Assembly: GCA_025617375.2 (NCBI GenBank)
Contig: JAMYGW020000002.1
Span: 2,976,001-3,040,000, forward strand
Reading direction: 5' to 3'
DNA: 64,000 nt
From: Acarospora socialis
Lineage: Eukaryota; Ascomycota; Lecanoromycetes; Acarosporales; Acarosporaceae
In this document: positions 1 to 23,477 of the stretch, piece after piece
Position numbering within the stretch: position 1 is the first letter of the stretch
How the letters are laid out: the number at the start of each line of letters is the position of its first letter
Program-made: the position numbers and the translations under genes
The notes under the pieces: generated by a model
The model's database searches: none
Told to the model about the DNA's origin: nothing
The model's input: only the letters and a program-made list of their open reading frames with translations

Positions 1-2890
1 TACATTAGAATCATTTCACATTCTTTTTCTGTTGTCAATATCAGTAAATGATCAAGACACATTTGCAATAAAGAACATCTTACTTGCATTGAGTCATTGT
101 CTGTGTCATTCTTCTCACTGATATTGTTTTTTTCATCACTTTCAATCTTAAAATTCAGTAATAAATCATCAGAGAGCTTAACAGCACTTAGAGACTCTTC
201 TTTCATATTATTGATTACAAAGTCATCTAATTCTTCAGTGTTGAATAACTTCTCATTTTCATTTTCAGACAAACAGATTGTCACATCTTCAGTCATGACT
301 TGCTTTACACTGCTAAAAGTTATCACATCTACAGTTCAGACATCTTCAAGAACAGTAGAAATAGTGATGACAGAAATGATATAGTTATGTGTAGTAGTAA
401 GTACTTTATGTTGTTAGAATATATCATTAAATTACTTACTTTACTTTCATATTTCTGATATTTTCTGAATTTACAATTTACTGTCAAAATTCTTACATAC
501 TTGCTCAAGAATCAGAATTCTCAGATAGTTCAAGATTTCATTGTTCAGTCATGAACTCAATTTGCTTTCAGTGTTGAATGAAAAGATTAAGATTTCATAC
601 TGTGACTTAATCAATCTGAGAGTGAATCTACATATATCAGTTAGTTCTAATGTTCAATTTTAATAAACATCATCAGCTATTTATCTCTTCAGATACATCA
701 ATTTTTTATATTTGTTTTGTCTTTATTTTTTCTGTGATCTTCAAGTTTTCTTCAGTATAAAGTGCATTGATGAGTTTCTGTTGTACTTTGTTCTCATTTT
801 CAGCATGATTCATCTGTTCTTCAAGTTATTTTGTTGCTGACTGTTAATAACATTTAATTAAATAACTAACTATCATATTACTCTGTTCTTACAAAAACAG
901 AACTTTATTAAAGTTTTTACTGCATCTATCTTTAATGTTTCATGTCTATCTTAATCTGCTTTAAGTTATTCTGTTGATTTTCTCAGTTTCAGTATTTTGT
1001 GATGTTTAATGTTGTAATCATATTTTCTTGCTTATTCAATAGCTTGAGATCTAGAAGAAAGATTCTTTCAATAAATGTATGTAACAACAGTGCATGAGTG
1101 TTAAAAATAGTTTTGCTTTCTCTTATACACTGATTTTACATCAAATTCAATGTTTTATTCTGACATTCTTAATGTAAATAATTAATCTTTGTGTTTCTGC
1201 AAGATTCTGATTACTGTTGTTGCAGTATTGAAATCTTTAACTGATTATACAGTATATCAGTCAGTGACATGTTAAAGAATGTTAGAAAAATATATTAAAA
1301 ACTATAAATGTAGAAAGTGTTATAATATCAGTCTTTTTTTCAGTCTGAGTTTTTTCTTTATTAAATGTTTCTGCTGCAGAATCTGATTGATGATTAATTG
1401 ATTATGCTTTGATTTATTAACAGAAGTGAAAAGCAGTGATGACTTCTTGTTTAATTTATCTGCAGTTTCAGTCATCTTAACTTTCTTTTTGTTTATCTTG
1501 AATCTAACACTCTGTTTTAATGTACAAGTCTTTGTATCAGATGTTTCTTGTTGTGCTGAGAGAAGATGCTGATTTGTTGAAGAGTTTGTTGTCTAAAAGA
1601 TGAATCATTGTGAAAGATGCATGTATGTACTGTTGTTTGACTATGATATTTGTTTGTTTTGATCAAATTCACTCAGTGTGTTAATGTGAATATTAAATAA
1701 AACAACATGATCTCAACTTTACATCAAGAACATCATTACATCACAAATCACAACACTACAACACATCAACACATCAAGCAACAGATACAAGCTCAAAATG
1801 TTTTGTTTTTAATGTACAGTTTTAACAGTCAACATCTAAAATGATGATGTTTAGAGAGCTAAAGAGAAAAAAGAAGAAGATATCTATTAAGTTCAAGTTT
1901 GTGCTTAAGCTCAAGCTCAATTCTGCATTCAAGTTTAAGACAGCTGCAAAGAATAAATTTACTGCATTGAATACAATGAATACTCAAACTGCTGCAGATT
2001 TGCAGACAGTAAATCTTCAGACTGCATTTGATTTACAATCAATGAACATTTCATTAACTATGTTTCAAAAAAAAAAGCAGTCATCAAAACAATCAGTACA
2101 ACAGTTTACAAAGATGATCATTAAGAGATGTGTTAAGTCAGATGATATGTATTACTTCATAATATTCTTCAATTTTAATAATTTTATCTAATGCACTCTT
2201 AATTAATGACTGCTCTGAAAGAGATTCAATGATATTAGAAGAATGTTAATTTGTTGATATCAAAACTTTTTTTCTCAAGAGTTGTTCAGTGAATTTGTCT
2301 CTTCAATAAGAAGTTGCAGATTTCAAATGTTCACTGACAAACAAGTATCTTATAAGTGTTGTAGAAGACTGCAGAGAGATTCTTGATGACATATTTGAAA
2401 AATATAGTGTGATTGTTTGAAACTTCTTCAATACAAGATTTTAATAACTACTAGACATCAATCTCTGTGCTATTCATGTCAAGTGTGTTATGATTTAAGT
2501 CAAAGATATAATCTTGATTAAACAGTTTTACAAGTGACTCTCATCTTATGATGTTACATCACTCAGATTTACATGTTAGATTAAAATATGTGATGTAGTC
2601 AAATTTGTAGTTCACAAATAAGAGATAACTTTGAGATCAGCATCAAATATTACATAGTATGCTTTTATCACAGTAAAGTAATAAGTTTATCTTGAAAATC
2701 TAAAGAAATTGTAGACATTAACAAGCAAACTGAGTCTATTAACATCTAGTCTTTTCATTTTCAATTTATTGAAATTAACATTAACAACTTCTGCTTTCTT
2801 GATCTTCTAGACAGTTGAGAAACACATAAAGTGTTAAAATAATGTGTTAAAAAGAAGAGCTCACTAAACTTATAGAGAAAATACTGATCT
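1..2890. repeat. RIP-type decayed repeat, unit 1 (unclassified)
   Basis: This very AT-rich tract essentially lacks GG, CC and CG. It resembles the next unit (about 2,891-5,046) in the same orientation. Shared landmarks are a stretch around 440-700 that matches one around 3,360-3,600 (both contain TTCTGATATTTTCTGAATT-like and ACTGTCAAAATT-like words), and a stretch near 2,325-2,375 resembling 4,735-4,790, both of which read on the plus strand as FTDK-VSYK followed by RRL. Short open frames at 97-384 and 1,841-2,191 are low-complexity and I recognise no domain. It is probably an old transposable element, but class and ends are not determinable by eye. Confidence 0.5.
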
Positions 2891-5046
2891 GTGATATTCA
2901 TTAAGTTCAATATGTTTTTCATCATTCTTTATAACATAATCTTGATTCTTTTCATCAACTTAATCAACATCATTTTCTTCATCATTGTTATCATGACTTT
3001 CATCATCATCTTCATTGAACTCACAACTCTCATCATCATCTTCATCAAATTCACAATTCTCATCATCATCTTCATCAAACAGATGCAAAAACAGATCATT
3101 TAAATGCTTAATCTTTTTCTCTTTCTTTTTATTCAAATTCATGATTCAGTTATCATTCTTCTTACTGTTTAAAGCTTCATTGTTTACTTCATTATTTGAT
3201 AAATAAATTCAAATACTCTTCACAGTTTCAAGATCACAATCAGAGTTTTGTTCAATCAGACTCTTAGTGATAACTGAAGCTGAAATAGTATAGCTGAGCA
3301 AGATAATAAGTGTTTATGCTCATTAGAATGTTTCATTAAAATACTCACTCAACATTTATATTCTTGATATTTTCTGAATTCATGATCTGCTGTCAAAATT
3401 GTTTCATATGAGCTTGAGAATTAAAGTTGTTCACAATCTCAAGACTTTGTTGACTCACTAGATACTTAATTCTTTCTCATTAACAGATAATTAAATCAAG
3501 ATTTCAATTCATTAAATCATCAAGCTGTGAATGAATCTATAAGCATATATTAGTTCTAACACATTGTTTTAACATATTATTCTATTGTAATGCTCTGCTA
3601 CTTACATCTGAAGATAAGATCTTCTTTTTTGATTTGATGTTTTTGTTTGTTATAACAATCTCAAAGTCTTTCTTCTCATTCTTCAGATCTTTGAGCTTTG
3701 CTTTGAGTTGAATTTCATGTTCAATATGCTGAATTTCTTTCTCAAGTCACACAGTTAACTTCATCAGTGCATGTTGTGCATGAAATAATGAAATCATATC
3801 ATTTTGCTTCATTCAATATCATTACTTCTTAAGATCTTCAATGACATCAATCTTTATCTGCACTTTAATATTTTCATCAACATCAATATACTTTTTGTTC
3901 TTTCTGAGCTTCTTAAAAGCATAGAACTTTGTGTTTCAATTGTGTTCAAGAGCTTGATCACAACATTTGAACATAGAAAACAAATTTTTGCATCAAATGT
4001 GATCTGATTCTGTACTGCAGTGTTTTAAATAATTATTTTCTGATTTACAAAATGTGTTAAAGTCAGATTTTATTGCTTGATCAGATTTCTTGAGTATATC
4101 AATTTCATATTTCTCTTCTTCTCTTTGTTTTCAAATCTGATTTGCAATGCTGTCATTCTCATCATTTTCTTTCTGAAAGTGAAGAGTCAGCTTGAAGTCT
4201 GTTAGAAAAATGTATTAAAAATTTTTGATTCAGTCTTCTTAATTTGATGCTTCTTCTCTGTTAACATTTTATGAGTTGTTGCATGATATTTGATGAATAT
4301 AGAATGTTTATAAAATATAAGATAATAGAGTATAGTGTCTGAAAACTTGCAAGAGATTAAGTAATGTTTGAGTTACAACAAGAGATGAATTGTCTGTTGA
4401 CTGAAATGCTGATATGTTTTGCTATTTAAAATGCAGTAATATGCATTTCTCAGTCTTCTTCATCACACAGTACAAATTGAGAAAATGACTTCTTATTCTT
4501 TTCAATTCACTTAAACATAATAACTAAACAAAAGAGATGTGCAAAACTGAGTAGTAAATACAATCACTTTGATATTTTAATACTCAGTTTTAACACACTT
4601 ACACACAAAAACTACTCTACAAGAAATATATTACTATCAGAAGTTCACAGATCTGTTAATTTCAAGCTGATTCTTTGTTTAACTGATCAGAACAATCTGT
4701 ACAAATGACAGTCAGATATATTTTAATTATGTTTACTGATAAAAAAGTATCATACAAGCTTTACAGAAGATTGCTGAGATTTTCTTGATAACTTATCTTG
4801 AAGATGAAACTTTGCTATTAAGTTCTTTTGATGATCAGTCTTCTGATTCAATTGATAGACATAAATTTTTATGTTATATATGTTAAGCAAATTATCATTC
4901 AAACAAAGAATATGACTTTTGTGCAGAAATTTTATGATTGTCTGACATCTTTTGAATTGATGCAAGATGTGAAATGATAAAATAGTCTAAGCTAGTAGTA
5001 AAGTTATTAACTTATAATGTTATCATGTTTGATCATTAGAAGAAAT
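2891..5046. repeat. RIP-type decayed repeat, unit 2 (unclassified)
   Basis: This is a second, same-strand relative of unit 1 with the same base composition. It includes a simple run of ATC/TTC triplets at about 2,995-3,085, which read on the minus strand is an Asp/Glu-rich stretch. The two units together look like a tandem or serial insertion of one family. No terminal repeats, domain or target duplication could be recognised. The exact junction between the units was not resolved. Confidence 0.45.
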
Positions 5047-5299
5047 TGTTAGAAATGTACTCTACATAGCATATGAAATATCATATACTGAATATGATGC
5101 TTTATGAGATTTCATAAATTATATATAATGAATGTACACAAAGTATATATCACATGATTGACTCAGATTGACTCACAAATCAGATTAAAGCAATCAGACT
5201 GACTTTGATTCAATTTGTGAATCAAGATTTCTGATTTAACTTGTAAGTTGAGTTAAAGTCAGATCAAATTGAGTCAGAATCAGTCTGACTTGATAATCA
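5047..5299. repeat. Possible solo LTR
   Basis: The segment begins TGTTAGAAATGTACTC and ends TAATCA, giving the TG...CA ends usual for an LTR, and it is directly followed by the Copia fragment that starts at about 5,300. Its inner part (5,150-5,290) is full of short imperfect inverted words such as GACTCA/TGAGTC and CAGACTGA/TCAGTCTG. No second copy and no flanking duplication was found in the window, so this call is weak. Confidence 0.25.
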
Positions 5300-8200
5300 C
5301 TTTATATCTGAGTTTGATGCAGAGAAAAATAATGAGATTATCATTTTGTTTAAGAAAGCTATCAGTAAGATATTCAGCTCTGAATAAGTTGTGAACTCTG
5401 AATACTTCACATACATAATTGATCAATGTTAACTTTTTAGTGATTTCTTAATACATATACAGCACTGACAAATCAAAGTTGAAAGAAGACACTTATACTC
5501 ATATTACTGTAAAGTTGCAGTCATACAGAATAAATTCAAAAACTTTATAAATCTAAGTTCAACACTTTATGTGTCTGATCTAGAAGTCAATCTTTTGTCA
5601 AAAAAACAAATATATAAAATGAAATTGTAGAGAAGCTTTAATCAGCACAGTCTTTACATGCAGAATAAACATAACAATGTTATGATAAAAGTGTTTGAAT
5701 GAGATGATGTCTATATAATTAAACATATTGTAAAAAAACTGAATGAGTTTGTTCTGTTGTTTGTCATACATATGTTATTTAATTCATAGATGACTCTTTT
5801 AATCACAGTACTGAATATGAACTTTCAGATGCAGACTGATTCATTAAGCTTTGTTAACACTTTATTTTCTGTTAACACTTCATTTTTAAGTGAAAAGATT
5901 AAGATCTACAAGCTGTAACATTAATGATTTGTTCATCTTGATTCTGTAAAACTTCATGATTTTTACAAAGTTACAACTCTTAAGAAGTCAATTCTCATTG
6001 TTGAAGACAAGAAGAATATTTGTGAAGTTTGTGTTTTCATTAAGTTTGTCAATCAGTGAGAACACAATATAAACAAAAAAAGAATCAACATTTTTGTTCT
6101 GATTTTCATTGATATATATAATTTTTTATCTCTGTCATTTATTGAACATCAGTACTTTCTGAAGATTGTGAATAACTATTTTTAAAAGATATAAATAATA
6201 TTACTGAAGTGATACAATAATGCTTTACAGAAACTGCAAGAGTAATAATTAAAGATTGAGCTTCAGATTGATGTGAGAATGCTTGCTGTATGAAGTGACA
6301 ATGTTACAAAGTTAAAATCAATTTTAAATAACTGATGCAGATTCTTTAACATTACATTGCAGTACATTGTGTTTTATATGTTTATTCAGAATAATATTGT
6401 TAAAAGAGTCATTTATAACACTGAGAATTCAGTGCACATCATGATCAAGAAAACAGAATTTTCAATAAAGTTTTAAGTGAAGACAGCATAAACAGATGTT
6501 TATCTTTACAATTAAACAACAATTAATTTCTTAATCAATAACAGACAAACAATTCTGAAAAAGATCTTCACTGATGTGCAGTTATTTATTGATTATATTT
6601 GTGTCTAAAATTGCAAATATTACTTCTATGTTGATCTCAAGTCATTATTGAAGAGTAGACAGAATAAGTTTATGAATTGAGAATAAGTGAAAGTCTTTAT
6701 GAACTATGTGAATAAAATCACAAAACAATATCTATTTTAAGTTTCAGATCTCAAGCAGATCATTAAAAGTTATGTTGTGAAGTTTGTCAAAAATGAAAAA
6801 AGAGACAGTGTTAATCTCAAACTACAAAGACAAATATTGAACATTCTATCTGAACAGAAATCAGTTAAGTAATCATAAAAAAATGTAGTCATCAAGAATT
6901 CTGCAGCATCTACAATCTTGTTTATTATTTCTGAGTAAATTCACAGATTCAGACTCATGAGTTTAAATGACAAAGAAGAATTTAAATTGACTACAAACAA
7001 TCTTGACACATTCTCATCAGACATTCATATAATGAATAGATCAATCATAATTAATTTAAATAAATCACAGACAAGTGAACAGAATGTAATTAAGCAGTTT
7101 TTACACATTAAAGTTTTCATCAGCAAAGCACTGAACATTTTAACTGAGAAAATTAAAACATTCTTATGTGTTGAGATTCTGAAGAGAAAATGAAATGATA
7201 ATGATGAAGACTTTGATGAGTTTATGATCAAGATATCATGAATTATGCTGATATTCACAGTGTTCACTGCAGATAATAAAAAAAATACTGAGAATATCAG
7301 ATCTGACATTTTCATGTTTATTATTTATGTTGAGACAGTGAGAAATTCAGTCTGAAAAAAGATATAAAAAAATGTTATTCATGCAGAATTAATAATTCTG
7401 ACAGTTAACAAAACATAAGAAGAAATTGTATCATCAAAAAATGCAAACATAGTAATCAGCAAATAAGTATTCAAATTTAAGCTGAACACTGATGAATCTC
7501 TGAATAAATTTAAAATAAAAATTATGATGAGAGATTTTTCACAAATATATAATATTGATTATAAGAACATCTTTGCATCTATAATCAAGTTCAACACTCT
7601 TTGAATCTTTCTTGTTATTGTTGTTTTTGAGAATCTTAAATATCATTAAATAAATATCAACAATATCTTCATGAAATTCTTTCTTAAAAAAATCATTTAC
7701 ATAACAGTTTCTTCTGAAGTTCAAGTTGCATCTAACTGTGTACTATGTATACTATATAGTTTTTATGATCTGAAGCAAACTGTGTAAAACTAATATAAAT
7801 GATGCATCACTGATCTGTGCAAGTTAAACTTTCATTAAAGTAAAGTTAATTCATGTCTTTTCATCAACAGTGTCAAAAGAATCATGCTGCTTCTTTATGT
7901 AAATAATATAATTATAGTCTCAGCAAATCTGACACATGTTTTCTGATTTAAGAAAGTTCTTATGAAGATATTCAAAGTTAAGAACTTAAAAAAGACACAG
8001 AAAATTCTTGACATATAAGTCATACACAATTGCAAGAAAAAAACTCTACATCTAAATCAGACTCACTATGTAAACAAGATGCTGAGAGATCTTTATATGT
8101 AATTTGATAAGCATAAGATCACAACAATTTCACTTAATAAATATGATGTTCTTTGTTTCATCAATTCAGTTGATCAAAAAATAGATTAAAGACAATATCA

Positions 8201-9156
8201 ACATGCAATTAAAAATTTAATGTATACAGTGATTCATACTTAACTGAACATCATCTTTGTTCTAAATTGACTAAATCAGTATTTTAGTGATTTTGCAAAA
8301 CATCATGAACATGTGCTCAAGAAACTGCTGTGATATGTGAGATTAATTATTAATTTTAACATTGTGTACAAACTTAGTGAAAGTCAAGTCATACTTAAAT
8401 ACTCTGACTTCAACTATGCATCAGATAAACAAGATTGAAAGTTAATTCTGAAATATGTGTATATGTTTAAAAATAAATCAATATTATGAACAAGTTAAAA
8501 GCAGAAGTTTGTTGTTATCTTAATTACAAAGACTGAATACATAATTATGTCAATATATGCAAAGACTGAAGTCTAACTTACACAGATGCTGTGAGACATG
8601 AATATGAATAAGTATTTTGAAGACAATTCATATCATGTAAACATCAAAAAAAATGAAGCTCATTGAGCAGTCTTATTTCTTCAGCTCAAAAGAGACAATC
8701 AGACTGTCTTGACTTTAATTAAAAATGCACATGTGTATGAGTGATCAAAACACATTAATATTATCTATCATCATATCTGTGATCTGCACAAGCAAAATCA
8801 GATTGATGTGAACTTTGTACTCAGTCAAAATATAATGACTGATGAATTAATCAAGTTCTTATTTAAATAAATCTTTAAGTGCTTTGTTGAACAACTGAAA
8901 CTTACTGTTAGTGAAAGTTAATAGATGCAGTGTCATTAAGTAAGAGTGTTGAGAAGTGTGATGTTCTAGCTGCTTTCATAGTTTTAATTGAAATTAATGT
9001 CAGAAATTACTCATTACTTATATAGTCTGCATGACAGAGTATGTGAACAGATAATCTTTACAACTTATATTGATCACAGTTAAGTCAATAGTGTATGTTT
9101 CACTAGATAGACAGTTAGTCAGCAGTATAGCACAAGTATTCTTTTATCTCTCAATA
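5300..9156 (+). mobile_element. Partial Ty1/Copia retrotransposon fossil
   Basis: This is a plus-strand copy of the same Copia family as the element at 54,040-59,491, which lies in the opposite orientation. Matching blocks run from about 5,305 (AAGATATTCAGCTCTGAAT near 5,363; its complement lies near 57,825) through the polymerase region to the LTR. It keeps the integrase and reverse transcriptase/RNase H portions and one LTR (8,947-9,156); the gag region and the upstream LTR are not present, so it is a broken, 5'-incomplete copy. It is heavily altered by RIP-type mutation with many breaks. Age cannot be clocked because the mutations are not random. Confidence 0.75.
8947..9156 (+). repeat. 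3' LTR of the partial Copia element
   Basis: It starts TGTTGAGAAGTG and ends CTCTCAATA. It matches, in reverse complement, the two 220-base LTRs of the Copia element at 54,040-59,491, for example the words CATGACAGAGTATGTGAA and GACAGTTAGTCAGCAGTATA. The last ten bases of the other LTRs are not matched here, so its outer edge is approximate. Confidence 0.7.
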
Positions 9157-12100
9157 CTTTGTATGAAAAATAACAAATCATCAATGAAATGATTGTTCAA
9201 CAAAAATGTACAGTGTTGTTCTGTACAATATTAAAAGATTTGAGTTAAAAAAAGTTTGTACAAATTGTAATGATGTTAAAATTCAAATCACTATATAATT
9301 CAAACTTTCTCAACTTCTTTTCATCATCAGAAGTTTATAAGAACTTTTGTCATGCAAGAGTGATGATTGTGTGATATTTGAAAGCTTGACTGTTAATAAT
9401 CACTGATGAAGAAGTTATATGACTGTTTAAAGCTATTGTGTCAGCATAAGTTCTTTGACTTTCAACAGTATGAGTTGCTTAAAGTATACAGTAATTTGCA
9501 ACTTGTCAAGCATCTTCTTCATGTTTGAAGAAAGAGTTTTAAGTTGTATGATTAAGAGAAAGAATATTCAAATCAATGATGACAGAGAAATAAGAGTTAA
9601 TAGTATCACAATCATAAAAACAGTATTTGTATTGAGCAGAGAAGTATTCAGTAGAATGCACAACATCTTTAAGAATGCAATGTGAATTTCATAATGATAA
9701 AAAAATCATTTTATATGATCTGAATTATCTAAAAAGAAAGAAGATTTGTAAACAAAAAAAATCATAATTTCTAAAAATAGACATTCAACATATCTTCTGA
9801 GTTAACATCAGTGAGTATTTCATTTTTAACAAAACTTGCTTCATCACTGTTTTATACAAAATTCTTACTTAACTTATAATGTTTATTACATTCAATCAGT
9901 TCTCTGTTTTGATATGTATAATCTTTATGAGATTTAGCAGATTCTGTCAGAATTGAATGTATCTTGAAGACAATATGTAATTATACAATAGTACATAATT
10001 ACTTGTACATCTTAACATAACATCATAAATCATCAACAAGAACATTTTCTGCTCTTACATCTTTCAAAACTATGCTCAATACTTGTAATTGTGATGTAAA
10101 TTACTTAAGAGTTACAGCAGAAAAATATTCATCAATATCTTTTTAGTCAGTATCTATTGTACAATTAATTGTGATGAAGATTTATCTCAATTATTATATA
10201 ATGTTTACATGATCATCATCACTTCTTCATTTATTCTCAACACATAATTCTCAGTGTTGATAATTTCTGAACAATAATATAATATTTATGAATTATCTGT
10301 TACTGAATTTAATCAATTGACTTACTTTTGTATGAGATGAACATTTCATAATTTCATATAATCATGAACTTCACATCAAATAATAAACATATACAGTATT
10401 ACTAGTGTAATGTGATCTGCAAAACTGATATCATTTTAAAGATCTTGCTGCATAAGATCTCTGAAAAATGTCTGTATAAGTTTTTTAGTAAATTGTACAA
10501 AGTAATATCAACATAGAAATAACTTATTCATCATCAAAACAGTTAACTTTTGATCAACTGACTTCATCAAGCTTCAATTCATTGATTGCAGTGCTGATAT
10601 TAAAGAAATAAATCTTTAATAGTTGTATATGTTCATTTGCAGTTGTACAATTCAGTGCATGATGAACTTCTACACATAATAATGTTTTCTTGTTTCAATC
10701 AGAGTACAAAATTTAAGAATGTACTTTCAGATTACAAACAACATTCAGATACTGACAGAGCACACTAACTGTTGTATGATTTGATACATCAACATAAATT
10801 CATGATAAATATCTGAAATAAACATTAATTTCAGCATAGATCTTGATGTTTTAACAGAACAGTTTGTCATAATCATTAATAAATCATAGATAATTGAGTT
10901 TCAGCACAATATATTCTTCATGTTGATATTGAAGATCTTTTATATGATGAATATGATCTTGAGAATTCAAATATTTAATTATATTAAACAAACAATCTCT
11001 AATACAGCATGTCAAAAAGTGATCAGAAATAGAATCAAAATGATATATTGATATATGTTGAATTCTTTTGTATGAAAGTGAATATAAAACAATTCTCATT
11101 CATATTCATCAATAACATCAGTATTCAACTCTTTCAATATAAGCTGTGTCATCTCTTCTTTTATTTCTTCAATGTTAAACAGAGAATGTTGATGAATCAT
11201 TTTTATCTTTTTTTGTAATTGTATAATTTCATGCAATTTAATTTCATGTTCTTTCTTCTGCAATACATATAGTATTTGAATATTATTGAGATATGTTTCA
11301 TAAAACAAAGCAACAATCTTAATTTGTAGTTCAGAAGTGTCAATGATTTTGATTTTCTTTGAAATTTGTTATTCTTGCAATTTTCACTCAATTATATAAT
11401 AACTGCAAGTGATATTCAACTTATTTTAAAGTTTTCTGTTAATATCTTGACTGAAGTGATTTTCTTAAAATAACTATATGACATAATCTTTGCAGAAGTC
11501 AAGATTCACAATTTATGCTGATATTGTAAATAATAAATTCTATTTGTATGATTTAGAAATTAAAATTTGTATGATTGTGACTGTGTATATTATTATATAA
11601 GCAAAAAAATTGAAACTTGTGTGATTGAAACTGTGTATATTCTCACATAAATAAGAAAATTGATTTTCTTTCTATAATATCAATGAACTACAGTATTGTA
11701 CAAATTAAATACAATTATATTAATTATAAATTTAATCTACTGACTTGCTTAACTTCATTATTGATATAACTATTAGTTTTGAGCACTGCAAAGAAGTGCA
11801 AGTTTTGCTCAGATATCATAACAACTTATATAATTAGATGAGAAGCAAAGAACAAAAATTAACAAAAAGATTAAAAAAATTTGTATATATTTATCACAAC
11901 ACAATAGCATTCTTCAATGATGATTCATCTTTATGCTCAGCAGATTCAGAATTTAAACTTAAGTGATGCTTTTCAACTATCACAATATTGTCATTATTTT
12001 CATCAACAACACTCTCATTATTGTTTTGTATGAAGCAGCAAGCTGTATAATTATATCATTTACAGTTTTCACATATTTCATCAAAATATTCTGCAATGCA

Positions 12101-13080
12101 ACAACATTCTGAAAAGAGTTTTAAAACTGATATGCACTGCATGCATGTTTGTTTGACTCTTTCATAAGACTGAATGAGAATGCTGTTGATGTACAAAGAA
12201 CAGTGTATTGAAATTTGCTGTGAAATAATTACATTTTATATAAACTTCACAGATCATTCAAAAAGAATCAAAAGTCTTTTACTCTGTGAACTGTGAATAA
12301 AGAGAGTGAGTTATTGTTGTTTTACTAAAAGAATAAGATTCTACTGAGTAACAGCAACAGTAATGACTGCATTGTATATGACAAGAGTTCTATATTATAC
12401 AATCTGTTAACATTAATGTATTAAAATTATTTCTGTGTACTTATATAATGATTGTGATTGAAACTGTGATAGTAATAAATTTGAAAGTGAGAGTAAAAAT
12501 AAAGTTAGATAAAAAACAGAGTGTCAGTTGTACAAAAAACTTTATTATTATTTACTTAATAAAACTGTACAGCTTGTAGAATCTATGAATTAACTCAATG
12601 ATCTATTATAATTTAAAGAATTACATTTCTTCTTGTTTTCTTTTCACTAAAAAGATGTCAGTAATATCTAATGTAGTATATTGTTGTAGATTGTATGAAT
12701 CAGAATTATATGATAACAGCTTCAATATAGAAAGTTTACTGCAATATTAAAAACATCATTTGATTTTTTCTTAATCACAGTTTTATTTTCTTCTCATCTC
12801 TTCACTTCTTCAGAATCTGTGTCTGAATGATGTCAAATTAGAATTCACTGTTATATATCTTCATATGATCAGTTTTTCAGATCAGTCTCTATATTGAGAA
12901 ATATCTACTTTATTGTTCTGTGTCTACATTATATCATTGATTACTGAGATAGAAGTGAACATTCTTGTAGATGATTGATTTGTTCATATAATGATGATGA
13001 TATTGATTACTTACTTACAGATCATCATTTCTCTACTACAATCTATGTTTATGTGTTTGTGAAAATTTGAAAAAAATTTG
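9157..13080 (-). repeat. Block A: unclassified RIP-type element with octamer array
   Basis: This AT-rich block is bounded by the Copia LTR on the left and the first GG/CG-containing DNA at 13,085 on the right. It is related to block B: minus-strand frames at about 11,096-11,175 contain LKELNTDVIDEYE and at 10,884-10,960 HHIKDLQYQHEEYIV. Block B has LEELNTEIIDDYE and CHMNDLQYHHNKYII on the plus strand. Near 12,050 (minus) a CENCK-like cysteine pair is followed by IQN, also seen in block B. It holds 14 exact copies of TTGTATGA, TCATACAA or TTGTACAA. It probably derives from a large element of unknown class. I could not find terminal repeats. Confidence 0.5.
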
Positions 13081-13679
13081 ATGTGTTGGTAATCTAGTTA
13101 TCGTCCACTGTACTTCTGTCTAAAGCATTTAGCACAACAGTTTACTCATGAAAAAAATAACTTCACATTACTCACCATCACATTACAGCAAGACACACCT
13201 GATACCACAGCTAATTTAGTTCTATCTTTCTGTACTTTCAGTCAACAAACGTTTCATCATTCATGCATATTGTAAGGGCACGCCGTAGAGCAAGGCCTAG
13301 CGCGTGACGGGCGTTGGAGGCGCGGCGCTGGTACGAGTACCGGGTTTGCGGGCTTGCTGATCCTACCAAACCGACTCTAACCGCCATCTTCGCTGACATG
13401 GTCATTGTTGAATGTGTCGCAAGTTCAGCTTTCGCATTGCATTCGCATGGGGAAACCGTGTTCTTGCCTCAATCTACTATAGGTTTGCGTCAACAGAGCA
13501 ATCGTTCGAGCCCTCAAGGTACAAATACTTAAGGACTATAGTAAAGCCACGCATTTGCTGGGAGTTTTTATACTGACACTGACACTGCCTGAAACTACCA
13601 CGATACTCTGACCACTCAACGAATCTGCTTTCATAAGCAGCAAAGCTTGACTGTAACAGCTCGAAAGAAGGACTAGATA
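13081..13679. other. Start of gene island, no gene seen
   Basis: GG and CG reappear at 13,085-13,105 and the GC level rises clearly by 13,280. I find no convincing coding frame. A 17-base word, CTCTAACCGCCATCTTC, at 13,375-13,391 recurs at 23,898-23,914. The stretch 13,590-13,679 would be the promoter and leader of the decayed gene that follows. Confidence 0.5.
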
Positions 13680-14334: not shown

Positions 14335-15140
14335 TTGACACGGCTCAAACTAGGTGACAACAAGACAACAAGACATAAACAAGAAGTTCAAGGACAGCGT
14401 CAGCGCAGTCTTCAGCCTCGACAGGACAATATCACGTACTTCTGCCCGGATTAGATGGCAGGGACGAGACACAAATGCTCATACCATGAAGGCATAGAAG
14501 GCTGCTCTCAGCAACTAATGATTACTTGACAATAAAACAGTCTAATGAAAGTCGAACGGGTAAAGCGAAGGGATCTTGATCAAAATAAGAATCCTGTGGT
14601 AACTTGGGCTGATATCTCTACCATGATTGCCGCTCTGTTCGGCGGCTCCAGATTCCTGCAGGAACGGATCTCCAAACGGTAAGCTAGAAGTAATGGCTTG
14701 GCAGTGCAATGGCGTGACATTGGCCCATAATATCGCCTTGCAGACACACGCCAGCCATCTTAGCCGCTCCATGCTACACCCCATATTGCGTATTGTCGCT
14801 AATACGTGAAGATACCCTGACAAGAGAAGGACATTTCAAATTTCGCTGTCGGCAATGTTTGCTGCGTCAAGGAGGAGAGGTTTAGGTGCTTGGTGCGCCT
14901 TGACGGCCCACGCACGAACCCCTCCCCACATGCGCTTTGCCACGATAAGGCAAGATTATGGTTCTGTGCACGAGACCAAAAGCCACTTCACCCCGGCTTT
15001 CCCATTTCGTGGCCCTCGCCTTCCACGACTTCATCTCTAGTATCCTGTCGAGACAGCCTTTACCAACATCTTTGTACGCCGACCTGCTTCCGCCCTCCAG
15101 TCCTCCTGCCCTTCTGCTCTCCAATTCCTTCAACACACAC
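14335..15140. other. Intergenic, upstream region of choline-sulfatase
   Basis: This holds the tail of the decayed gene and the promoter and leader of the sulfatase. Several open frames on both strands overlap here, but none has recognisable content. An ATG at 14,958 is in frame with the sulfatase and would add 61 residues (see that entry). Confidence 0.5.
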
Positions 15141-16856
15141 ATGGCGCAACGTGTACTTCCGGATACGCCACCCATCTCACCACCCAATGGCTTTCAGGGT
15201 GCAGATGGTTTCTCTACGCCTCTATTTCCCACAAAACCCAACATCCTTTACATCATGGCAGACCAGCTAGCTGCGCCAATGCTTAAGATCCACAACCCTA
15301 AATCACAGATCCGAACACCCAACATTGACAGGCTAGCAGCCAGATCAGTGGTATTCGACTCTGCTTACTGTAACTCACCACTATGTGCACCTTCTCGCAT
15401 GGCTATGGTCACTGGCCAATTACCATCGAAGATCGGCTCCTACGACAACGCTAGCCAGATCGCCTCTGACATTCCCACCTACGCTCACTACCTACGACAT
15501 CAGGGCTATGAGACTACACTTGCGGGTAAGATGCATTTTGTTGGAGATCAGCTACATGGCTATGAGAATCGTCTCACTTCAGACGTATACCCAGGAGATT
15601 TTGGTTGGGCTGTGAATTGGGATGAGCCAGACAGGCGATTGGAGTGGTACCATAACAGCAGCTCTATCGTGCAGGCGGGACCATGTGTACGGAGCAATGA
15701 GCTCGACTATGACGAGGAAGTGCTCTTCAAGTCAAAACAATATCTGTTCGACCATGTCCGAAAGGGCAAGGGCGCACGTCCATTTGCGCTGACCGTTTCT
15801 TTCACCCACCCACATGACCCCTATGTTATCGAAAATGAATATTGGGACATGTATGAAGGCGTCGACATTGACATGCCGCAAGTGGGCCCGAATGATGTGG
15901 TGCTTGACCCGCACAGCAAGCGACTGAGATATGTCTGCGAATTGGAAGGACTTGACTTTACCGAAGAGCAAATTAAGAGAGCAAGACGGGCCTATTACGG
16001 CGCAGTGAGCTACGTCGACAACTGCATCGGGCAGTTGCTGAAGGTGATCAAAGACTGTGGCCTGGACGACAACACTGCCATCATGTTCAGCGGCGACCAC
16101 GGAGACATGCTAGGCGAGCGTGGCTTGTGGTACAAGATGTCATATTTTGAGGCTTCTGTTCGCGCGCCGCTGTTGTTCAGCTACCCCAAACTCTTCCGGC
16201 CACACCGCGTCTCACAAAACGTTTCCACCCTCGATATTCTCCCCACACTTGCAGAACTTGTCGGCGCCAAGCTCATACCTGGCCTGCCTTTGGACGGAAT
16301 CTCCCTGATGCCTCATCTATATGGCGGAGACGGTGGGCACGACACAGTGTTTGCGGAGTACATGGGTGAGGGGACCGTCGCGCCGCTCATGATGATACGT
16401 CGCGGAGACTGGAAGTACATCACCTGTCCAGCAGATCCCCCACAGTTGTACAACCTGAACACAGATCCACTAGAACTCACCAACCTGGCTTCGAGCACCG
16501 ATGCTGAGGTTCAAGGAGTTTTCCGGGCCTTCGAGCAGGAAGCAAAGGGGAAGTGGAACATGGCGGACATCACAGCATCGGTCCACAAGAGTCAGCGTCA
16601 ACGTCATTTCATCCACAAGACGCTCATGATGGGCAGGTATGAGAGTTGGGACTGGACAGGTCACTGGGGTGATGACGGCCGGATCAAGTATATTCGCAGT
16701 CAGACGCCACTTGACGAGCTTGAGCTCAAGGCACGATTCCCCATTCACCAGAACTTGCCTGCCAAAAGCATGCGAGTCACTCCCAAGGGCAGGACCATTG
16801 TGGCACCCAGTAGGAGACTTAACGAGCTCGTTAGCGATACAGTGCACTATCGTTAA
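15141..16856 (+). CDS. Choline-sulfatase (sulfatase family)
   Basis: An intronless 571-residue protein that should release choline and sulfate from choline-O-sulfate (EC 3.1.6.6 type), a fungal sulfur store and osmolyte. Seen: the N-terminal NILYIMADQL metal-binding start of the sulfatase fold (residues about 34-43), and the C-x-P-S-R active-site motif in LCAPSRMAMVTG with Cys82, the residue normally converted to formylglycine. Also present are GYETTLAGKMHF, the HPHDPY motif and GDHGDMLGERG. The C-terminal part (YESWDW near 496, RFP) is typical of choline-sulfatases rather than arylsulfatases. I chose ATG 15,141 (MAQRVLPDTPP) over the upstream ATG 14,958, because the extra 61 residues look unconserved and family length is about 560-610. 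It lies alone in the island; no transporter or sulfatase-modifying enzyme is nearby. There is no signal peptide from this start, suggesting an intracellular enzyme. Confidence 0.92.
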   Translation: MAQRVLPDTPPISPPNGFQGADGFSTPLFPTKPNILYIMADQLAAPMLKIHNPKSQIRTPNIDRLAARSVVFDSAYCNSPLCAPSRMAMVTGQLPSKIGSYDNASQIASDIPTYAHYLRHQGYETTLAGKMHFVGDQLHGYENRLTSDVYPGDFGWAVNWDEPDRRLEWYHNSSSIVQAGPCVRSNELDYDEEVLFKSKQYLFDHVRKGKGARPFALTVSFTHPHDPYVIENEYWDMYEGVDIDMPQVGPNDVVLDPHSKRLRYVCELEGLDFTEEQIKRARRAYYGAVSYVDNCIGQLLKVIKDCGLDDNTAIMFSGDHGDMLGERGLWYKMSYFEASVRAPLLFSYPKLFRPHRVSQNVSTLDILPTLAELVGAKLIPGLPLDGISLMPHLYGGDGGHDTVFAEYMGEGTVAPLMMIRRGDWKYITCPADPPQLYNLNTDPLELTNLASSTDAEVQGVFRAFEQEAKGKWNMADITASVHKSQRQRHFIHKTLMMGRYESWDWTGHWGDDGRIKYIRSQTPLDELELKARFPIHQNLPAKSMRVTPKGRTIVAPSRRLNELVSDTVHYR

Positions 16857-17715: not shown

Positions 17716-17907
17716 ATGCAGTTGACATACACAGCAGTCTTGCTAGCACTGCTAATCCATACAACCTCGGCTGGACCGATCGGAAGGTCAGCGCCTTTAT
17801 GGGTGACTAAGACTGACTTACGGACAATCAAGAAAAATTATCTGAATTTTGTAACATACAACAAAATGATGATCCAAGAACATCAAGAGCATGTTTTACA
17901 TTTGTAG
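17716..17907 (+). pseudogene. 5' fragment of a secreted-protein gene, cut by block B
   Basis: ATG 17,716 opens a clear signal peptide, MQLTYTAVLLALLIHTTSAG, with a hydrophobic core and a small-residue cleavage site, followed by PIGRSAPLWV. From about 17,825 the DNA turns abruptly AT-rich and the frame runs into the decayed block, ending at 17,907. The native first part is therefore only about 35-40 residues and the rest is foreign. The likely missing part is the Ser-rich sequence that resumes at about 21,996 after block B. That joining is inference; the signal peptide and the abrupt composition change are seen directly. Confidence 0.6.
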
Positions 17908-20900
17908 AACTTGCACACAATATTCTTGAATAATTCAGCTGAGATTCAAATTCAGATTCTAGAAGATGTAGTACTACATGATCTATGTGTTACTGCTTAC
18001 ATCACTGAATCTGTTGATATGAATTGTATGATATATATTAATATATATAGTTTTTATAAGTGAATGATATTGTACAACACAGTCTCACTGAGCATATCTT
18101 AGTAATGAATGTATGTTGTACAATATAAGAGTTTGAAAAATCTGAGTCTGTAGTAAGAATTTTATATTTTATGTTGAACTGTTGCTTATGAACTTGCACT
18201 AATATATGCACACACACAACTTATTATTATTCATTATATTCAATAATTCAGCACTGTCATACAAAGACAACAAAATGAAAGATGATAGACATACTATTGA
18301 TCCTACTTCTCATAAAAACTGAATTATTAAGTGTTTTCAGAAAAATTGCATCACACAGAAGATATCTCAGCTACTTGTGAAACATCACAACATTGTGTGT
18401 AATGATTGTATGATTTGACAATGACTCAAAGATTAACAAATATCAAAAAGAATCAAGACAGATGACTCTTCTCAACTTGTTTTTTGTGTAACTGCTCTTT
18501 TCTTTGACTCTTGTGTTAATGACAAAACTATTCTACATATTGTGAGACAAGAAGAGTATAGTCTATATAGATCTTGTATGACTACACAAAAGACTGAAAT
18601 TAATTTAAAAAATCTTCATTTTTAATTGAGCAGAGACAGATGAAAATCTTAAAAGAATAGTTCTTGAAGAACTAAATACAGAAATTATTGATGACTATGA
18701 AAGAAGCATGCTATATACTCACTTTTGTACAAAAGAACATTTTGTTGTCAGATACTATATCTAAATCATACAATATACATATATTTGTTTCTAGTAACTA
18801 ATATAGTAACAGAGATTGTTTCTTTGTCATGATTAAAGAGCTTAACTCAGAAAAACATCAATGTCATATGAATGATTTGCAATATCATCACAACAAATAC
18901 ATCATTTCAGATCTCAACTATATCTGATCAATTGATGATCACAATAAGTTGAGTATGTAAGATTTTCAGAATCTATGCTGAAATAAATGCATTTTCTCAT
19001 TATATTTCATGAATCTATGTTGACATCTCAAATTATATAAAAGTCAGTGTTGCATGTCAGTATCTGAAGACAGTTAAGACAGTTAAATTTCTTTTACAGA
19101 TCTTATGATCTGATTGTGAAAAGAAAACAACATTGTGTGTTGAGATGCACACAGCACTGTGTTGTATGACACAGTCAGATATTGACTTGACTGACTGTTA
19201 CTACTATGATACAAGCACTGCAAATCAACACATCAAGACTTAATGATCTTAACTGACAAAAAGTTAGATCTTTTGCTGATATGTAAGTATTTTCTCATTT
19301 GATATTGCTTATACAATGTTAATATATTTAAAATTACTTTCATTGTCTCACAGAAGAAAAATTTTACAATTATTTATTTTCTGATGATTATATTATCATG
19401 CTGACTATATATATGTCAATTGTGCAATAAGAGATCTATGAATTTGCACAACTGTGAAATAATCACATCATACAATAACAATTCAATTGTCTCAACACTG
19501 TAACTGATCAGTCTTATATGCTATATAATTATTCAGAAACAGTTGCAGCAGAAAATTATGACATATCAGTAAACATAAATTTCATTGATCAATTACAGAC
19601 ATCATATATAAGTTAAAATATGTATTCTTAATCTACTAGTATCATACAACACACTAATTTATAAATATTGATGAATATCTTTCATCTATCATTCTTAATT
19701 AATGTGCAGAACAGCTGCAGAATTTAAATATAAAACTTTTAAATATTTATACAGAGAATACTTTTGCAGATGAATTATGATCTCATTGTGAGATCTATGT
19801 TCAATTGTGCACAATCATACAACAACATATTCAATCAGAATTAGCATCAATTCTGATTAAATTAATTAAATTATATAAAAAAATATTTCTGATCAGAATT
19901 GAACAGACTGTAGAAAATGAAGTTAATGCTCAGTTAATAGATCAGAGACAAGACACAGAGATTATACAAAATGATGATGAGATAAATATTCTCAAAAAAG
20001 AATTAAATCTCAGCATACAGTCAGAAAATCTTGAGAAAAACTTATCTGACTGAAATATCTTCTATGTAATTTCTTTTCAAAGTATATGTGTTGTATGATA
20101 TCAAAATGTCTAAATTCACATTCACTGAGTGATGTCAGAACTCAGATAAATCACATATAGAATGAAAAATCAAGCAGTACTGTAATTGATGTGATATCAA
20201 AAATTTAAATACTTTCAGTCAACAAGTAATCATTGATCTCAATATCATTTCAATTTCACTATATTGTATGACAACATCATCAGTACTATCATACATTTTT
20301 ATTACAGCAGAAACTGCATGACAAACAGTCAATATATGAATTTGCAATACTTCTTGTTCATATTCACATGCAGACATCAGTTTTCTAGACTCATGCAGCA
20401 CTGTTGTTACTGATATTGCTGTGTTTAAAGTATATTGTATGATAGTGACTCTATGTCAAAAGACTTATATCTATAAAAATGATCATAATAGACTTCATGA
20501 GATCAAGAAGTATGTAGAATGCAAAATTATTGATATGAAATGCTTTAATTGTTGTTTTTTGCATTCAGTCTTGATCATACAACAGTTTACATGTACTTGT
20601 TCTTAGAAAAATGCAGTATTCAACTTTATAATTATATTTTTGACAATCTTAAGATCTTTATTTGCACAGATCTTGTATCTGACATGTATTAATGAAATCA
20701 TATTGTATGAAAAGTTACATCTCTCACACTTGCAAATGACTGAAGCAAAGAAGATTCAATTTATTTTAAATATAGTGCAAAGAATGTCACAATAATTCTG
20801 AATTTGTTGACTTACTTTAAGTTCACATTCAGTGACTATTTGATGTTTTTGATAGTCAAAAAGAAGATTGTTGTGTCATACAATGTGAAATCTATAAAGA

Positions 20901-21960
20901 AAGAGACTATTAAGAAGAAAAAGTTGTTCAAATCACTCATCAAGAAAATTAAGAGAGAAGATAAGTTAAAGATTAAACTAAATGTGAATTCATCTTCTGT
21001 CAAGATTGAGACAGCTGCAGTAAGTTGTATGATATAGCATTAATAATATATATTGATTATTTTCATGCAGTCTTTATGCACATCAACAGAATCTCATAAT
21101 TTTAATTCAAATCTAAATTCAGATTTAGATTTATCATCAGTAGATTTCTCATCTCTTGCACATCATACAAAATTGTCAGCTGCACTCAACTAAAATATTT
21201 CTTGACTAAGTTTTATAGAGTACAATATTCAACATATAGTATCTTGAAGCTTTGCAATAAAGTATATAAAAACTTTGAAGATTTGCAATAGAGTGTTTCT
21301 CTTGTATAAGACACTCAGATCTTAGAAATGCAAAAAAGATAGTAATTTATTTGTTATATATTGCTGAAGCTTTGATTTTGAAATCAGATTTAATAGTTTT
21401 TATCATCTTTTCTACTTCTGATGATGATACATTATCTGTATTTTTATTTTGTATGATGCATTTAGCACTATGATCATTTCTCTTACAATTTTCACAGACT
21501 TTTCAAAATCATCTCTTCAATCACTGACACTTCACATATATTTTCTGAGTTACTTTCACACAGTAGTCACATGATTCTTCTGCTGACAATTCATTTCTGT
21601 TATATGATGTTAGTTAATTCACTGATCTTATTCACTTTTATAATTCATTTATTTTAATTGAATAAGAAGACTTTCTACTATTCAGATATCATACAGAGAA
21701 GCATTTATTGTAGAATTTTCACAGAGTTGAGAATTGAAGATAGAACATTAATTTATTAGAATATAGTGGTCTGAATGAGTTGCATGAGGGAGAAGCTACA
21801 ATTTTTAATATACTTATTTTGTACAACATGGAGAGAAGTTGAACTGGTGACACTTATCTTATTGACATCACATTGAACATGGAAATTGTCAATGACTAGT
21901 GGAGTGAGATTAGACATTGTTGCACTGATCTCTTGTCCAGCTCCAAGTGGTCACTGCGTC
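17830..21960 (+). repeat. Block B: unclassified RIP-type element with octamer array
   Basis: A 4.1-kb AT-rich block inside the gene island, related to block A but mostly inverted relative to it. Plus-strand words LEELNTEIIDDYE (about 18,665-18,705) and DLQYHHNKYII (about 18,875-18,910) match block A. A minus-strand CENCKRNDHSAKC zinc-knuckle-like motif followed by IIQNKN lies at about 21,435-21,500; because it has the same orientation as its block A counterpart, block B may be rearranged or composite. Intron-like sequences such as GTAAGTATTTTC...CTCACAG (19,283-19,352) are visible. It carries 22 exact copies of the octamer set described in findings. The right edge (21,770-21,960) is a gradient in which GG and CC reappear. 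Element class is unknown. Confidence 0.55.
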
Positions 21961-21995
21961 TTTCTAGATATTGAAGTTGTCGCTTATTTTAATTT

Positions 21996-23477
21996 TTGAT
22001 TGTCTGTAAGTCAGTCTTAGTCGCCCGTAGCCTTTCCCACCACACGAGAAGTGCTTTTTTTGATAGTGAAGTAGAAAACAACGATATCGTACGTCGCGCC
22101 AACAGCTACAGCAGACGATGGGTCGTCAACGACGGTCAGAGTTCTGCGCTACCGGTGGCTAGCTTCGATCATCATCATCAACATGCTACCACTACATTAT
22201 TACAAGAAGCCGCACCTTCAGTGGCCGGGACTGGCGACATTGTTGGCTCTGTGCCAGTCGTAGGTGTGGGTGGCGATAGTACATCATTACTTTCGTTGCT
22301 GAACACCGGTGTCGCAGCGAGTCGGTCACCAACAGCAGCCGCGGCACAGGGAAGCGGAGGGGAGTGACACTAACGGTCCAGCAAGCCTCCAGCACAGTAT
22401 CAAGCACAGAAGGCTAATTCAGTGACTTTGACAGTTTCTCAACAACCTTCAGCTGCCCCGTCTAGCGGCGAAAAGCAAGTTGGAAAGGTACCCGCAGTTG
22501 GCGTTGGAGGTGGGAACACTTCTCTACTCGATCTACTGAGCCCCTCCGTGGGCAGTCTCGTCCATGTCAAGTCAGGTCCAAGACGCTTCGTCTGCCGTTG
22601 TTGGTTCATTTCCAAGCTCAGTCAGCCAAACCGCAGTGTTTCCTCAAAGCACCTCCAGCAGCTCCACCGGGTCGTCCAACCTGGTAGACAGCTTGAGTCT
22701 TGCGTCCTCAAGCGCGAGCGAGGCTGGCGCTGCGACAACAACGGAGGTTCAGTCTTCCTCGAGTATTGCGCCTATTCCTGGGTCCAACAGCAGTGCCGCA
22801 GCGTCAGCTGGCAGTGCAGGCAGCAGCGCAGTGGAAACCTCTGAACCGACTACCACAGTCATGATATTTAGCATGGTCACGGAGACTGTCAGTGCTGGGA
22901 CGAGCACTTTCAGCCTCTGGTGCGGCTCAAAGCGAGGGCTCTGCTATATCCAGCATCTTGGCGACCTCTCCGAGTGAATCCGCAGTGGGTACTCTATCCT
23001 CCACGTCCGCCCAATCGAGCATTGACAGTGCGTCTGCCAGCCTTCCGTCGCCTAGTCAACAAGACGTATTATCTGTCGCCTTGAGTTCGTCCAGTGCTGA
23101 TGGCAGTGCCCCGTCAACTTCTGGGTCAGGTGACGCCTGTAGCACCTACCGTCACGATCGTTTTTGTCACCGAGTCTGCCACTTTCACCGGGTCAAACGG
23201 GGGCTATGCAACTCCACAGCCAGATGCAGGAGCTGCCAGTCGAGCTTCGAGTGCACCGGCAGTGTCCAGTGCAGTCAGCACGTCCTCCGCTCCTGACGTC
23301 GAAACATCGGTTGCCGCCACATCTAGCGTCGTCTCGCCTGAGTCCATCTCTCTGGCCCCCATCTTGACCAATATTTTGACGACGAGCTCTGCTGTCTCGT
23401 CGGAAAGTGCAGCACCAAGCAGTGAGGCGGTATCATCATCACCCGCGGTAGCTGCAGAGCAAAAGGCGGGGACTTGA
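21996..23477 (+). pseudogene. Ser/Ala/Thr-rich surface-protein gene, frameshifted
   Basis: Host-type GC content returns here. The reading moves between frames: 21,996-22,367 and about 22,422-22,560 share one frame, 22,564 to about 22,915 uses a second, about 22,915-23,120 a third, and 23,094-23,477 the first again. The content is continuous in style: NNDIVRRANSYSR, then two related units (GSVPVVGVGGDSTSLLSLL and GKVPAVGVGGGNTSLLDLL), then long Ser/Ala/Thr stretches broken by TTTVMIFSMVTETVSAGTST and PTVTIVFVTESATFTG. Such proteins are usually secreted and wall-anchored, but no GPI-type tail is clear at the end (AVAAEQKAGT). No signal peptide precedes it; the one at 17,716 beyond block B may be its own. 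Introns could explain one shift but not all. Confidence 0.6.

Follow-up and report, generated by a model that had tools for sequence, protein, structure and literature searches.

A palindromic octamer array, putatively of protein-binding sites, in CpG-stripped DNA transposons of Acarospora socialis

The transposon copy and its relatives

The window analyzed here is a 64,000-nucleotide stretch of the Acarospora socialis genome (contig JAMYGW020000002.1, positions 2,976,001 to 3,040,000). Its block B is a dead, mutation-silenced copy of a terminal inverted repeat (TIR) DNA transposon. This element, F1, is complete and CpG-stripped, lies on the forward strand at 17800–22027 (4,228 bp), and carries a 32-bp TIR at each end, the left at 17800–17831 (forward) and the right at 21996–22027 (reverse). 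The two TIRs, located from the sequence and by searching for their outer 22 bases as a pattern, are three transitions apart, and the sequence directly outside them is a TA target-site duplication (17798–17799 and 22028–22029). TA also stands directly before the TIR at four of the five other places examined (L061 to L064, not L065). A search of the genome with F1 returned 46 matches, with several copies fragmentary; the family comprises about ten copies at 83%–90% identity, the window's copy counted, and one older copy at 77%–80%. The mobile element that the first-pass annotation had thought possible is thus borne out by TIRs, TA on both sides, and some ten dispersed copies, the features of a class II element; the TA duplication is that of Tc1/mariner elements.

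F1 probably has two genes. The first, a decayed transposase gene with introns on the forward strand, extends over approximately 18500–20050, as judged from reading frames and from a transversion phase bias relative to the sister family F2; this codon-phase bias is present in most segments of the gene and opposite in one (q1670–1745). The second, a probable gene (ORF2) with approximate limits of 20300–21193 on the same strand, is marked by long stop-free stretches across copies, its intron and end being set by eye. The probable intron, 21020–21070, reads GTAAGT...CAG in the window and has a conserved 5' end (GTAAGT in 9/10 copies, GTAAAT in 1/10). Weak profile matches and known motifs suggest, weakly, that the transposase of F1 and F2 is integrase-core-like. 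The profile is rva_4 (PF24764), with 12 matches at E-values of 0.004–0.26 and 14.9–20.9 bits, all below the curated cut-off of 26, and E. coli also matched among 14 controls. Six of these matches are in F2 copies, five at other places from the F1 search, one in the relative L045, and none in F1; at an E-value of 0.001 PF24764 had no match. A Pfam search of seven stop-free pieces (six from F1 or F2, one from the flank of L013) gave only weak, unrelated names and no convincing match.

F2 is found in block A and elsewhere. In the window, one part with the same octamer array and conserved sites lies at 9156–11821 on the reverse strand (89% identity to copy L040), and the other element end lies at 12623–13108 on the forward strand, placed by alignment to L039–L041 and set by eye; it adjoins TA and has a TIR-like sequence that differs from that of F1. 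The nine F2 rows used below represent eight distinct copies, L041 and L037 being the same locus. F2 can be aligned to F1 in the 5' half only, where about 56% of columns are identical (window versus L040). A third relative, F3 (L045), is a truncated copy of 2.2 kb.

An array of former CpG palindromes

Three octamers derivable from the palindrome TCGTACGA by loss of CpG had been reported 22 times in block B, and all 22 are present at the starts given. Markov versions of block B (300 each) contain on average 1.1 (first-order) or 1.3 (second-order) of them, with maxima of 4 and 6. Across ten F1 copies, one of them incomplete and the 78% copy left out, the pattern TYRTAYRA is conserved at 24 places in 90% or more of the copies, against nine for the runner-up among 256 patterns of the same form. 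At a threshold of at least 60% there are 26 places, to which 21449 (TYRTAYRA in 5/9 copies) was added by hand. The resulting array of 27 former TCGTACGA sites spans 18070–21826, with starts at 18070, 18116, 18257, 18406, 18574, 18725, 18766, 18864, 19033, 19162, 19309, 19468, 19642, 19815, 19962, 20091, 20264, 20435, 20575, 20703, 20876, 21025, 21163, 21302, 21449, 21600, and 21819. It begins 270 bp in from the left end of the element and stops about 200 bp short of the right end, and those outermost stretches hold no conserved octamer site. The information sits in the octamer, the flanks holding at most 0.24 bit.

Comparison of copies also alters the membership of the array. The octamer at 18024, counted as its first member in the first-pass annotation, was rejected as a conserved site, as 11 copies read TTGCATGA (six), TTGCATAA (two), TTGTATGA (two), and TTGTATAA (one). 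Of the variants proposed to fill long gaps, those at 19309 and 21600 are array sites, and the third, given as 19972, is at 19962. The gap between 18766 and 19162, described as empty, holds two sites: 18864, which in the window is TCATATGA, a fourth CpG derivative outside the original count, and 19033, which is TTATATAA in the window and TTGTACAA or TCATACAA in 4/10 copies. The site at 21302 fills another gap. The array had been placed in block B only; the octamer recurs at 9159–12984, in and around the related element.

Open coding stretches (18725, 21163), the ORF2 intron (21025), and the non-coding ends all hold sites, which agrees with the earlier view that this is not a protein repeat. The octamers contain GTACGA, and a reading as 5' splice sites was rejected, since open coding stretches have sites too; the one clear intron at 21020–21070 begins with its GTAAGT five bases ahead of its octamer.

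The ancestral form TCGTACGA, first proposed from the window alone, is well supported as the general form of the array sites by alternation of TG and CA between copies, which points to an ancestral CpG. Such alternation is seen among F1 copies at 33/54 half-sites, versus 100/683 other YR columns, and among F2 copies at 31/56 half-sites. Both CpGs are evidenced at only 10/27 F1 and 9/28 F2 sites, and neither alternates at 4/27 and 6/28, respectively; at some sites (18070, 20435) the CpG may never have existed. An ancestor with generally a single CpG was rejected, given that both CpGs alternate at 10/27 sites. Intact TCGTACGA occurs at 374 places in the genome versus 638 for the reversed octamer, and two patterns for a pair of TCGTACGA at start distances of 124–178 bp found none in the genome, so that no intact array is left. 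Separately, the remnant L061 has TCGTACAA at its position 359, with one CpG intact; we left it out of the evidence because the alignment there is ambiguous. Decay by RIP or at CpG is known in fungal repeats (PMC9409882). The repeats described here are likewise mutated at CpG; this is the mutational background, from which the array stands apart.

Conservation of sites and spacing

F2 keeps the octamer at 28 places and the second-ranked of the 256 patterns at nine; the sites at 3364–4264 are based on three copies. The 28 include position 1829, which reads TTATATAA in 7/9 rows, and exclude 1866, and the CpG alternation count took 1866 (8/9 rows) in place of 1829. All 11 F2 sites in the alignable 5' half fall on F1 site columns, nine exactly and two within 2–5 columns (read from the window and L040 rows when six copies of each family are aligned), whereas 1,200 shifts gave at most two exact coincidences. 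An alignment artefact was rejected, as the sites still coincide when octamers are masked beforehand (seven exact, four within 1–7 columns). F1 and F2 share ancestry, and their 5' halves are therefore not independent inventions. It is these near-identical site places that make the octamers look like selected protein-binding sites, and conservation of positions across two families argues for a binding-site array, one of the natures first suggested, as the likeliest.

The array is not found in all related or similar sequence. L045, a single truncated copy, lacks it, with two sites where the corresponding stretch of F1 in the window has 15 under the same rule. A different array in L045 was rejected, only background words being found there, in what is a weak test on one copy. 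The remaining CpG-free tracts in the window are without the array, and equal octamer density in unrelated tracts, which would have spoken against a special array, was not seen: block C has only three strict matches in about 25 kb.

The spacing of about 130–175 bases noted at the outset holds, and periodicity tightened rather than faded as copies were added. In F1, 22 of the 26 adjacent gaps are within 128–174 bp, averaging 152.0 bp among themselves (SD 15.3), and the remaining four are 41, 46, 98, and 219 bp. The mean step is 152 bp in F1 and F2 alike, and the coefficients of variation of the gaps are 0.25 and 0.21, versus 0.95 for random positions; the F2 spacings come from a hand-made list of 29 places, of which one (L040 108) is present in a single copy. 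About 150 bp is roughly one nucleosome step, a scale that the 152-bp mean fits. The spacings also show a weak 10.5–10.9-bp preference (p = 0.0045 in F1, 0.13 in F2 alone, 0.004 pooled), and phasing of the sites by this test, chosen post hoc, is only suggestive.

What the octamers may do

Before CpG mutation, F1 would have borne about 27 copies of TCGTACGA, one per 152 bp or so, regardless of exon, intron, or non-coding DNA. In the simplest mechanism, a sequence-specific protein would bind each palindrome as a homodimer; it may be the product of ORF2, the N-terminus of the transposase, or a factor of the host. With a dimer seated at every nucleosome-sized step, the whole element could then be kept in a defined chromatin state, most plausibly an open one, against host silencing or CpG-directed mutation; it is the spacing value alone that suggests this chromatin role. 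That the octamers are under selection as dimer-binding sites whose effect is on the DNA or chromatin of the entire element we regard as a serious possibility, just short of probable, in which the protein, its dimeric state, and its chromatin role are all putative and derived from sequence. The fuller claim, that a selfish transposon lineage writes a chromatin code along its entire length, with a palindrome per nucleosome step selected through exons and introns and read by a dimeric protein in defense against silencing and CpG-directed mutation, is tentative and on balance somewhat unlikely.

The octamers might instead be sites at which transposase binds to aid excision or synapsis, comparable to the subterminal repeat clusters of Ac/Ds and En/Spm but spread over the full length. 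The motif is element-specific and kept together with a transposase lineage, and the array-free L045 belongs to a more distant one; however, the element ends, where such sites are expected, have no conserved site, and the octamers also occupy the element's interior, so we consider this unlikely. Decidedly unlikely is a role as nucleosome-phasing or linker sites, each nucleosome having one, for a host chromatin factor that the element exploits or through which it is controlled. The shared 152-bp step and the weak 10.5–10.9-bp preference are what one would expect of such sites, but that preference is not significant in F2 alone and the intact octamer is infrequent in the genome.

Host transcription factor sites driving the element's genes seem very unlikely, even though the same octamer occurs within 16–20-bp tandem elements in the Pfcyp51 promoter of Pseudocercospora fijiensis (PMC6637983): exons and introns are evenly covered over 3.8 kb, unlike a promoter, and the relevant passages of that source name no binding factor. 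Iteron and centromere-like plasmid arrays have a look of dispersed palindromes, which the array resembles. An array serving replication or segregation in an extrachromosomal stage of the element is nonetheless highly improbable, for in its TIRs and TA duplication the window copy matches an ordinary cut-and-paste element, and copies lie in assembled contigs, where an episomal stage would be invisible anyway. Regular spacing alone would be compatible with an old tandem repeat, yet a by-product, whether remnants of such a repeat or of protein-coding constraint, is scarcely credible: no tandem repeat of score ≥50 was found between 12.5 and 26.1 kb, there is almost no information beyond the octamer, sites lie across genes, introns, and non-coding DNA, and L045 has a homologous transposase without the array.

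If the preferred reading, of selected dimer-binding sites, is right in its chromatin form, the 8-bp octamer is a concrete probe with which to fish out the binding protein, and it becomes directly testable whether transposons specify a chromatin register of their own. Alternation of TG and CA between copies also recovers such sites from CpG-stripped sequence. Our search of the literature on TCGTACGA, on transposon motifs and arrays, and on fungal integrase-core DNA transposons, in which subscription journals were thinly covered and which is no proof of absence, found no such array described.

TA-duplicating TIR transposons of the Tc1/mariner type have fungal examples, and F1 resembles them in its TA target duplication and TIRs; it differs in its length of 4.2 kb, its probable two genes, and a transposase that is, weakly, rva_4/integrase-core-like. 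In En/Spm (TnpA) and Ac/Ds, subterminal repeats crowd the element termini. F1 likewise has many copies of a short, putative binding motif within a TIR transposon, but its ends are free and its body is covered. To our knowledge, sequence-specific anti-silencing by transposons has been described mainly for plant VANDALs, and F1 and F2 would, if the proposal is true, represent a second anti-silencing design, built differently, with regular palindromes over coding sequence at a step near one nucleosome. In the parts of the Arabidopsis studies bearing on these motifs, the VANC21 motif YAGTATTAY is dense in one VANDAL family and rare in related families, and VANC motifs have one orientation and lie mainly in non-coding tandem repeats with fast turnover (PMC5735166, PMC10398659). 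F1 and F2 share with VANDAL21 and VANDAL6 a short element-specific motif at high density in a single family. In contrast to the VANC motifs so described, the octamer, with its putative binder, is a palindrome, evenly spaced, present also in coding stretches and outside any tandem repeats found, and its positions are conserved between divergent families.

The F1 element and its surroundings

The window consists of gene tracts of normal GC and three AT-rich tracts with zero CpG (1–13101, ~17823–21956 and ~38259–64000). Some 43 kb of AT-rich sequence thereby lacks any CpG; its borders are sharp, and CpG in the intervening gene tracts is near expectation. CpG-free tracts are the mark of a CpG-directed, RIP-like repeat mutation familiar from fungi. 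A chromodomain ORF of 746 aa (Pfam PF00385; 28239–30479, plus strand) lies between such tracts, and a choline-sulfatase-like ORF (14958–16856, plus strand) lies ~0.9 kb from the F1 insertion.

Block B, the complete F1 element of the window, ends in 32-bp inverted repeats (17800–17831 and 21996–22027, three transitions apart) and is flanked by TA at both ends. A 4.2-kb F1 query gives 46 matches in the genome (31.1 Mb in 38 contigs, of which the window is 64 kb). About ten F1 copies stand at 83%–90% identity, the window copy included and several fragmented; one older copy stands at 77%–80%, and 16 places match in one segment only, at 64%–68%. In a pattern search, the outer 22 bases of the terminal inverted repeat (TIR) occur 18 times at three or fewer mismatches and the reversed pattern not at all, and TA precedes the TIR at four of five additional loci inspected. 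The TIRs of block B, the flanking TA and the dispersed copies together therefore identify F1 as a family of TIR DNA transposons. Short right-end remnants, each preceded by TA, lie in GC-normal surroundings at L061, L062 and L064 (from position 201), the first retaining TCGTACAA at 359; L063 holds the TIR alone, also after TA and in GC-normal surroundings.

The octamer array and its spacing

All 22 octamers that the first-pass annotation reported in block B are present at their positions. By chance, 1.1–1.3 would be expected. The reported site at 18024 drops out of the array, and the longer gaps in the reported series are occupied by sites that read, e.g., TCATATGA or TTATATAA in the window's own copy. 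The degenerate octamer TYRTAYRA is found at 24 F1 places in at least 90% of copies, compared with nine places for the best of 255 other NYRNNYRN patterns; at 60% or more of copies there are 26 places, and adding 21449 brings the array to 27. The ends are site-free, with no conserved site less than 270 bp from the left end or less than ~200 bp from the right.

The ten F1 copies diverge chiefly through CpG-type mutations, so the ancestral state was judged per site. TG in some copies and CA in others is seen at 33 of 54 F1 half-sites versus 100 of 683 other YR columns, an alternation that reads as the signature of former CpG at those half-sites. Counted by site, it affects both CpGs at ten, one or both at 23 and neither at four. 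Among window-copy octamers (18024–21826), 18 carry same-strand double changes (TTGTATGA, TCATACAA), the non-site 18024 included, and opposite-strand changes are fewer (four TTGTACAA, one TCATATGA). It is as if both CpGs of one site were usually hit together on one strand.

Twenty-two of the 26 F1 gaps fall within 128–174 bp (mean 152.0, SD 15.3). Over all F1 gaps the coefficient of variation is 0.25 versus 0.95 for random placement, and none of 5,000 random sets is as low. The mean step in F2, the sister family, is also 152.0 bp (25 gaps, from a list of 29 places). F1 spacings bunch near 129, 139, 149, 159 and 170 bp, with a preferred step of 10.9 bp (p = 0.0045); F1 with the F2 3′ part prefers 10.5 bp (p = 0.004), and F2 alone shows no significant preference (p = 0.13). 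Since this test was picked after the numbers were known, the 10.5–10.9-bp step is a hint.

Conservation of site positions and controls

F2 lies at 9156–11821 on the minus strand and elsewhere at L036, L037 (= L041), L039, L040, L042–L044 and L046; its description rests on nine distinct copies, ~89%–91% alike, with TIR-like ends unlike those of F1. Eight copies share 28 conserved TYRTAYRA places, the next pattern reaching nine. The two families can be aligned in the 5′ half only, at ~56% identical columns. F2 has 11 sites there, nine on the identical column as F1 sites and two at 2–5 columns; F1 site 18766 has no F2 partner. Sliding one site set along the other yields at most two coincidences in 1,200 shifts, and masking the octamers (N or random letters) before alignment leaves seven exact coincidences, the other four lying at 1–7 columns. 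Within the nine sites that match exactly, 100% of columns keep their purine/pyrimidine class, as expected of positions preselected as sites, versus 73% outside. The octamers are thus old, fixed in position as the sequence around them drifted. What the analysis computed is the element, the array, the positional conservation and, at many sites, an ancestral CpG.

The octamer density that drew attention to block B is absent from unrelated AT-rich, CpG-free tracts of the window: block C has three strict matches in ~25 kb. The best pattern in 4.1-kb tracts outside F1/F2 reaches 14, versus 27 in F1. L045, a truncated third transposase relative and a single control (n = 1), has two sites in 2.2 kb versus 15 in the window's F1 copy, and a genome search found no further copy of it. 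This relative (L045/L047, G000:C2:2922299-2924499) is seemingly single-copy, adjoins common-repeat copies and lacks an octamer array. A repeat of ~220 bp occurs at over 40 places (L048–L060 and others), several pairs of them ~5.8 kb apart, and probably represents the LTRs of a retrotransposon present in many copies. Genome-wide, TCGTACGA is not frequent (374 places versus 638 for its reversal), and a genome pattern search found no surviving pairs of intact TCGTACGA at array spacing.

Coding context and possible role

Across most segments of q1100–2080, transversions separating F1 from F2 are biased towards a single codon position; q1670–1745 departs from this pattern. The longest run free of shared stops (q1901–2252) lies on the plus strand. 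Pfam rva_4, an integrase-core family, gives 12 weak matches in relatives (E 0.004–0.26, all under the cut-off): six in F2 copies, five at other places matching the F1 query, one in L045 and none in F1. We take the broken reading frames to show the rva_4 motif pattern. A second gene seems to terminate near 21193, and its intron (21020–21070) has GTAAGT in nine of ten copies. Octamer sites occur in open coding stretches (e.g., 18725 and 21163), in the intron (21025) and in the non-coding ends.

A function in RNA or protein would follow strand, frame and gene limits, to all of which the octamers are apparently indifferent, and one acting at the ends would place sites there, where they are avoided; what remains would be a function of the DNA over the element's full length. 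The palindromic form suggests a dimeric protein as reader, and the 152-bp step, close to nucleosome scale, suggests one dimer per nucleosome. Judged from sequence, the octamers are very probably selected protein-binding sites, and within this binding-site reading a chromatin role is a possibility that we hold tentatively. Binding, a dimer, chromatin and anti-silencing are what we infer.

The same octamer is described in tandem promoter elements of banana-pathogen isolates with reduced fungicide sensitivity (PMC6637983), a match that may be coincidence. The nearest described case known to us is VANC/VANDAL, in which proteins encoded by the element recognise short, densely packed motifs and strip silencing from it (PMC5735166, PMC10398659). 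Dense short motifs on the element are the point of likeness; VANC/VANDAL has another motif form, lies mainly in non-coding tandem repeats and turns over rapidly, unlike the F1/F2 array. Because motif form, location and turnover differ, we claim likeness and not membership: by analogy, the array may work like an anti-silencing array.
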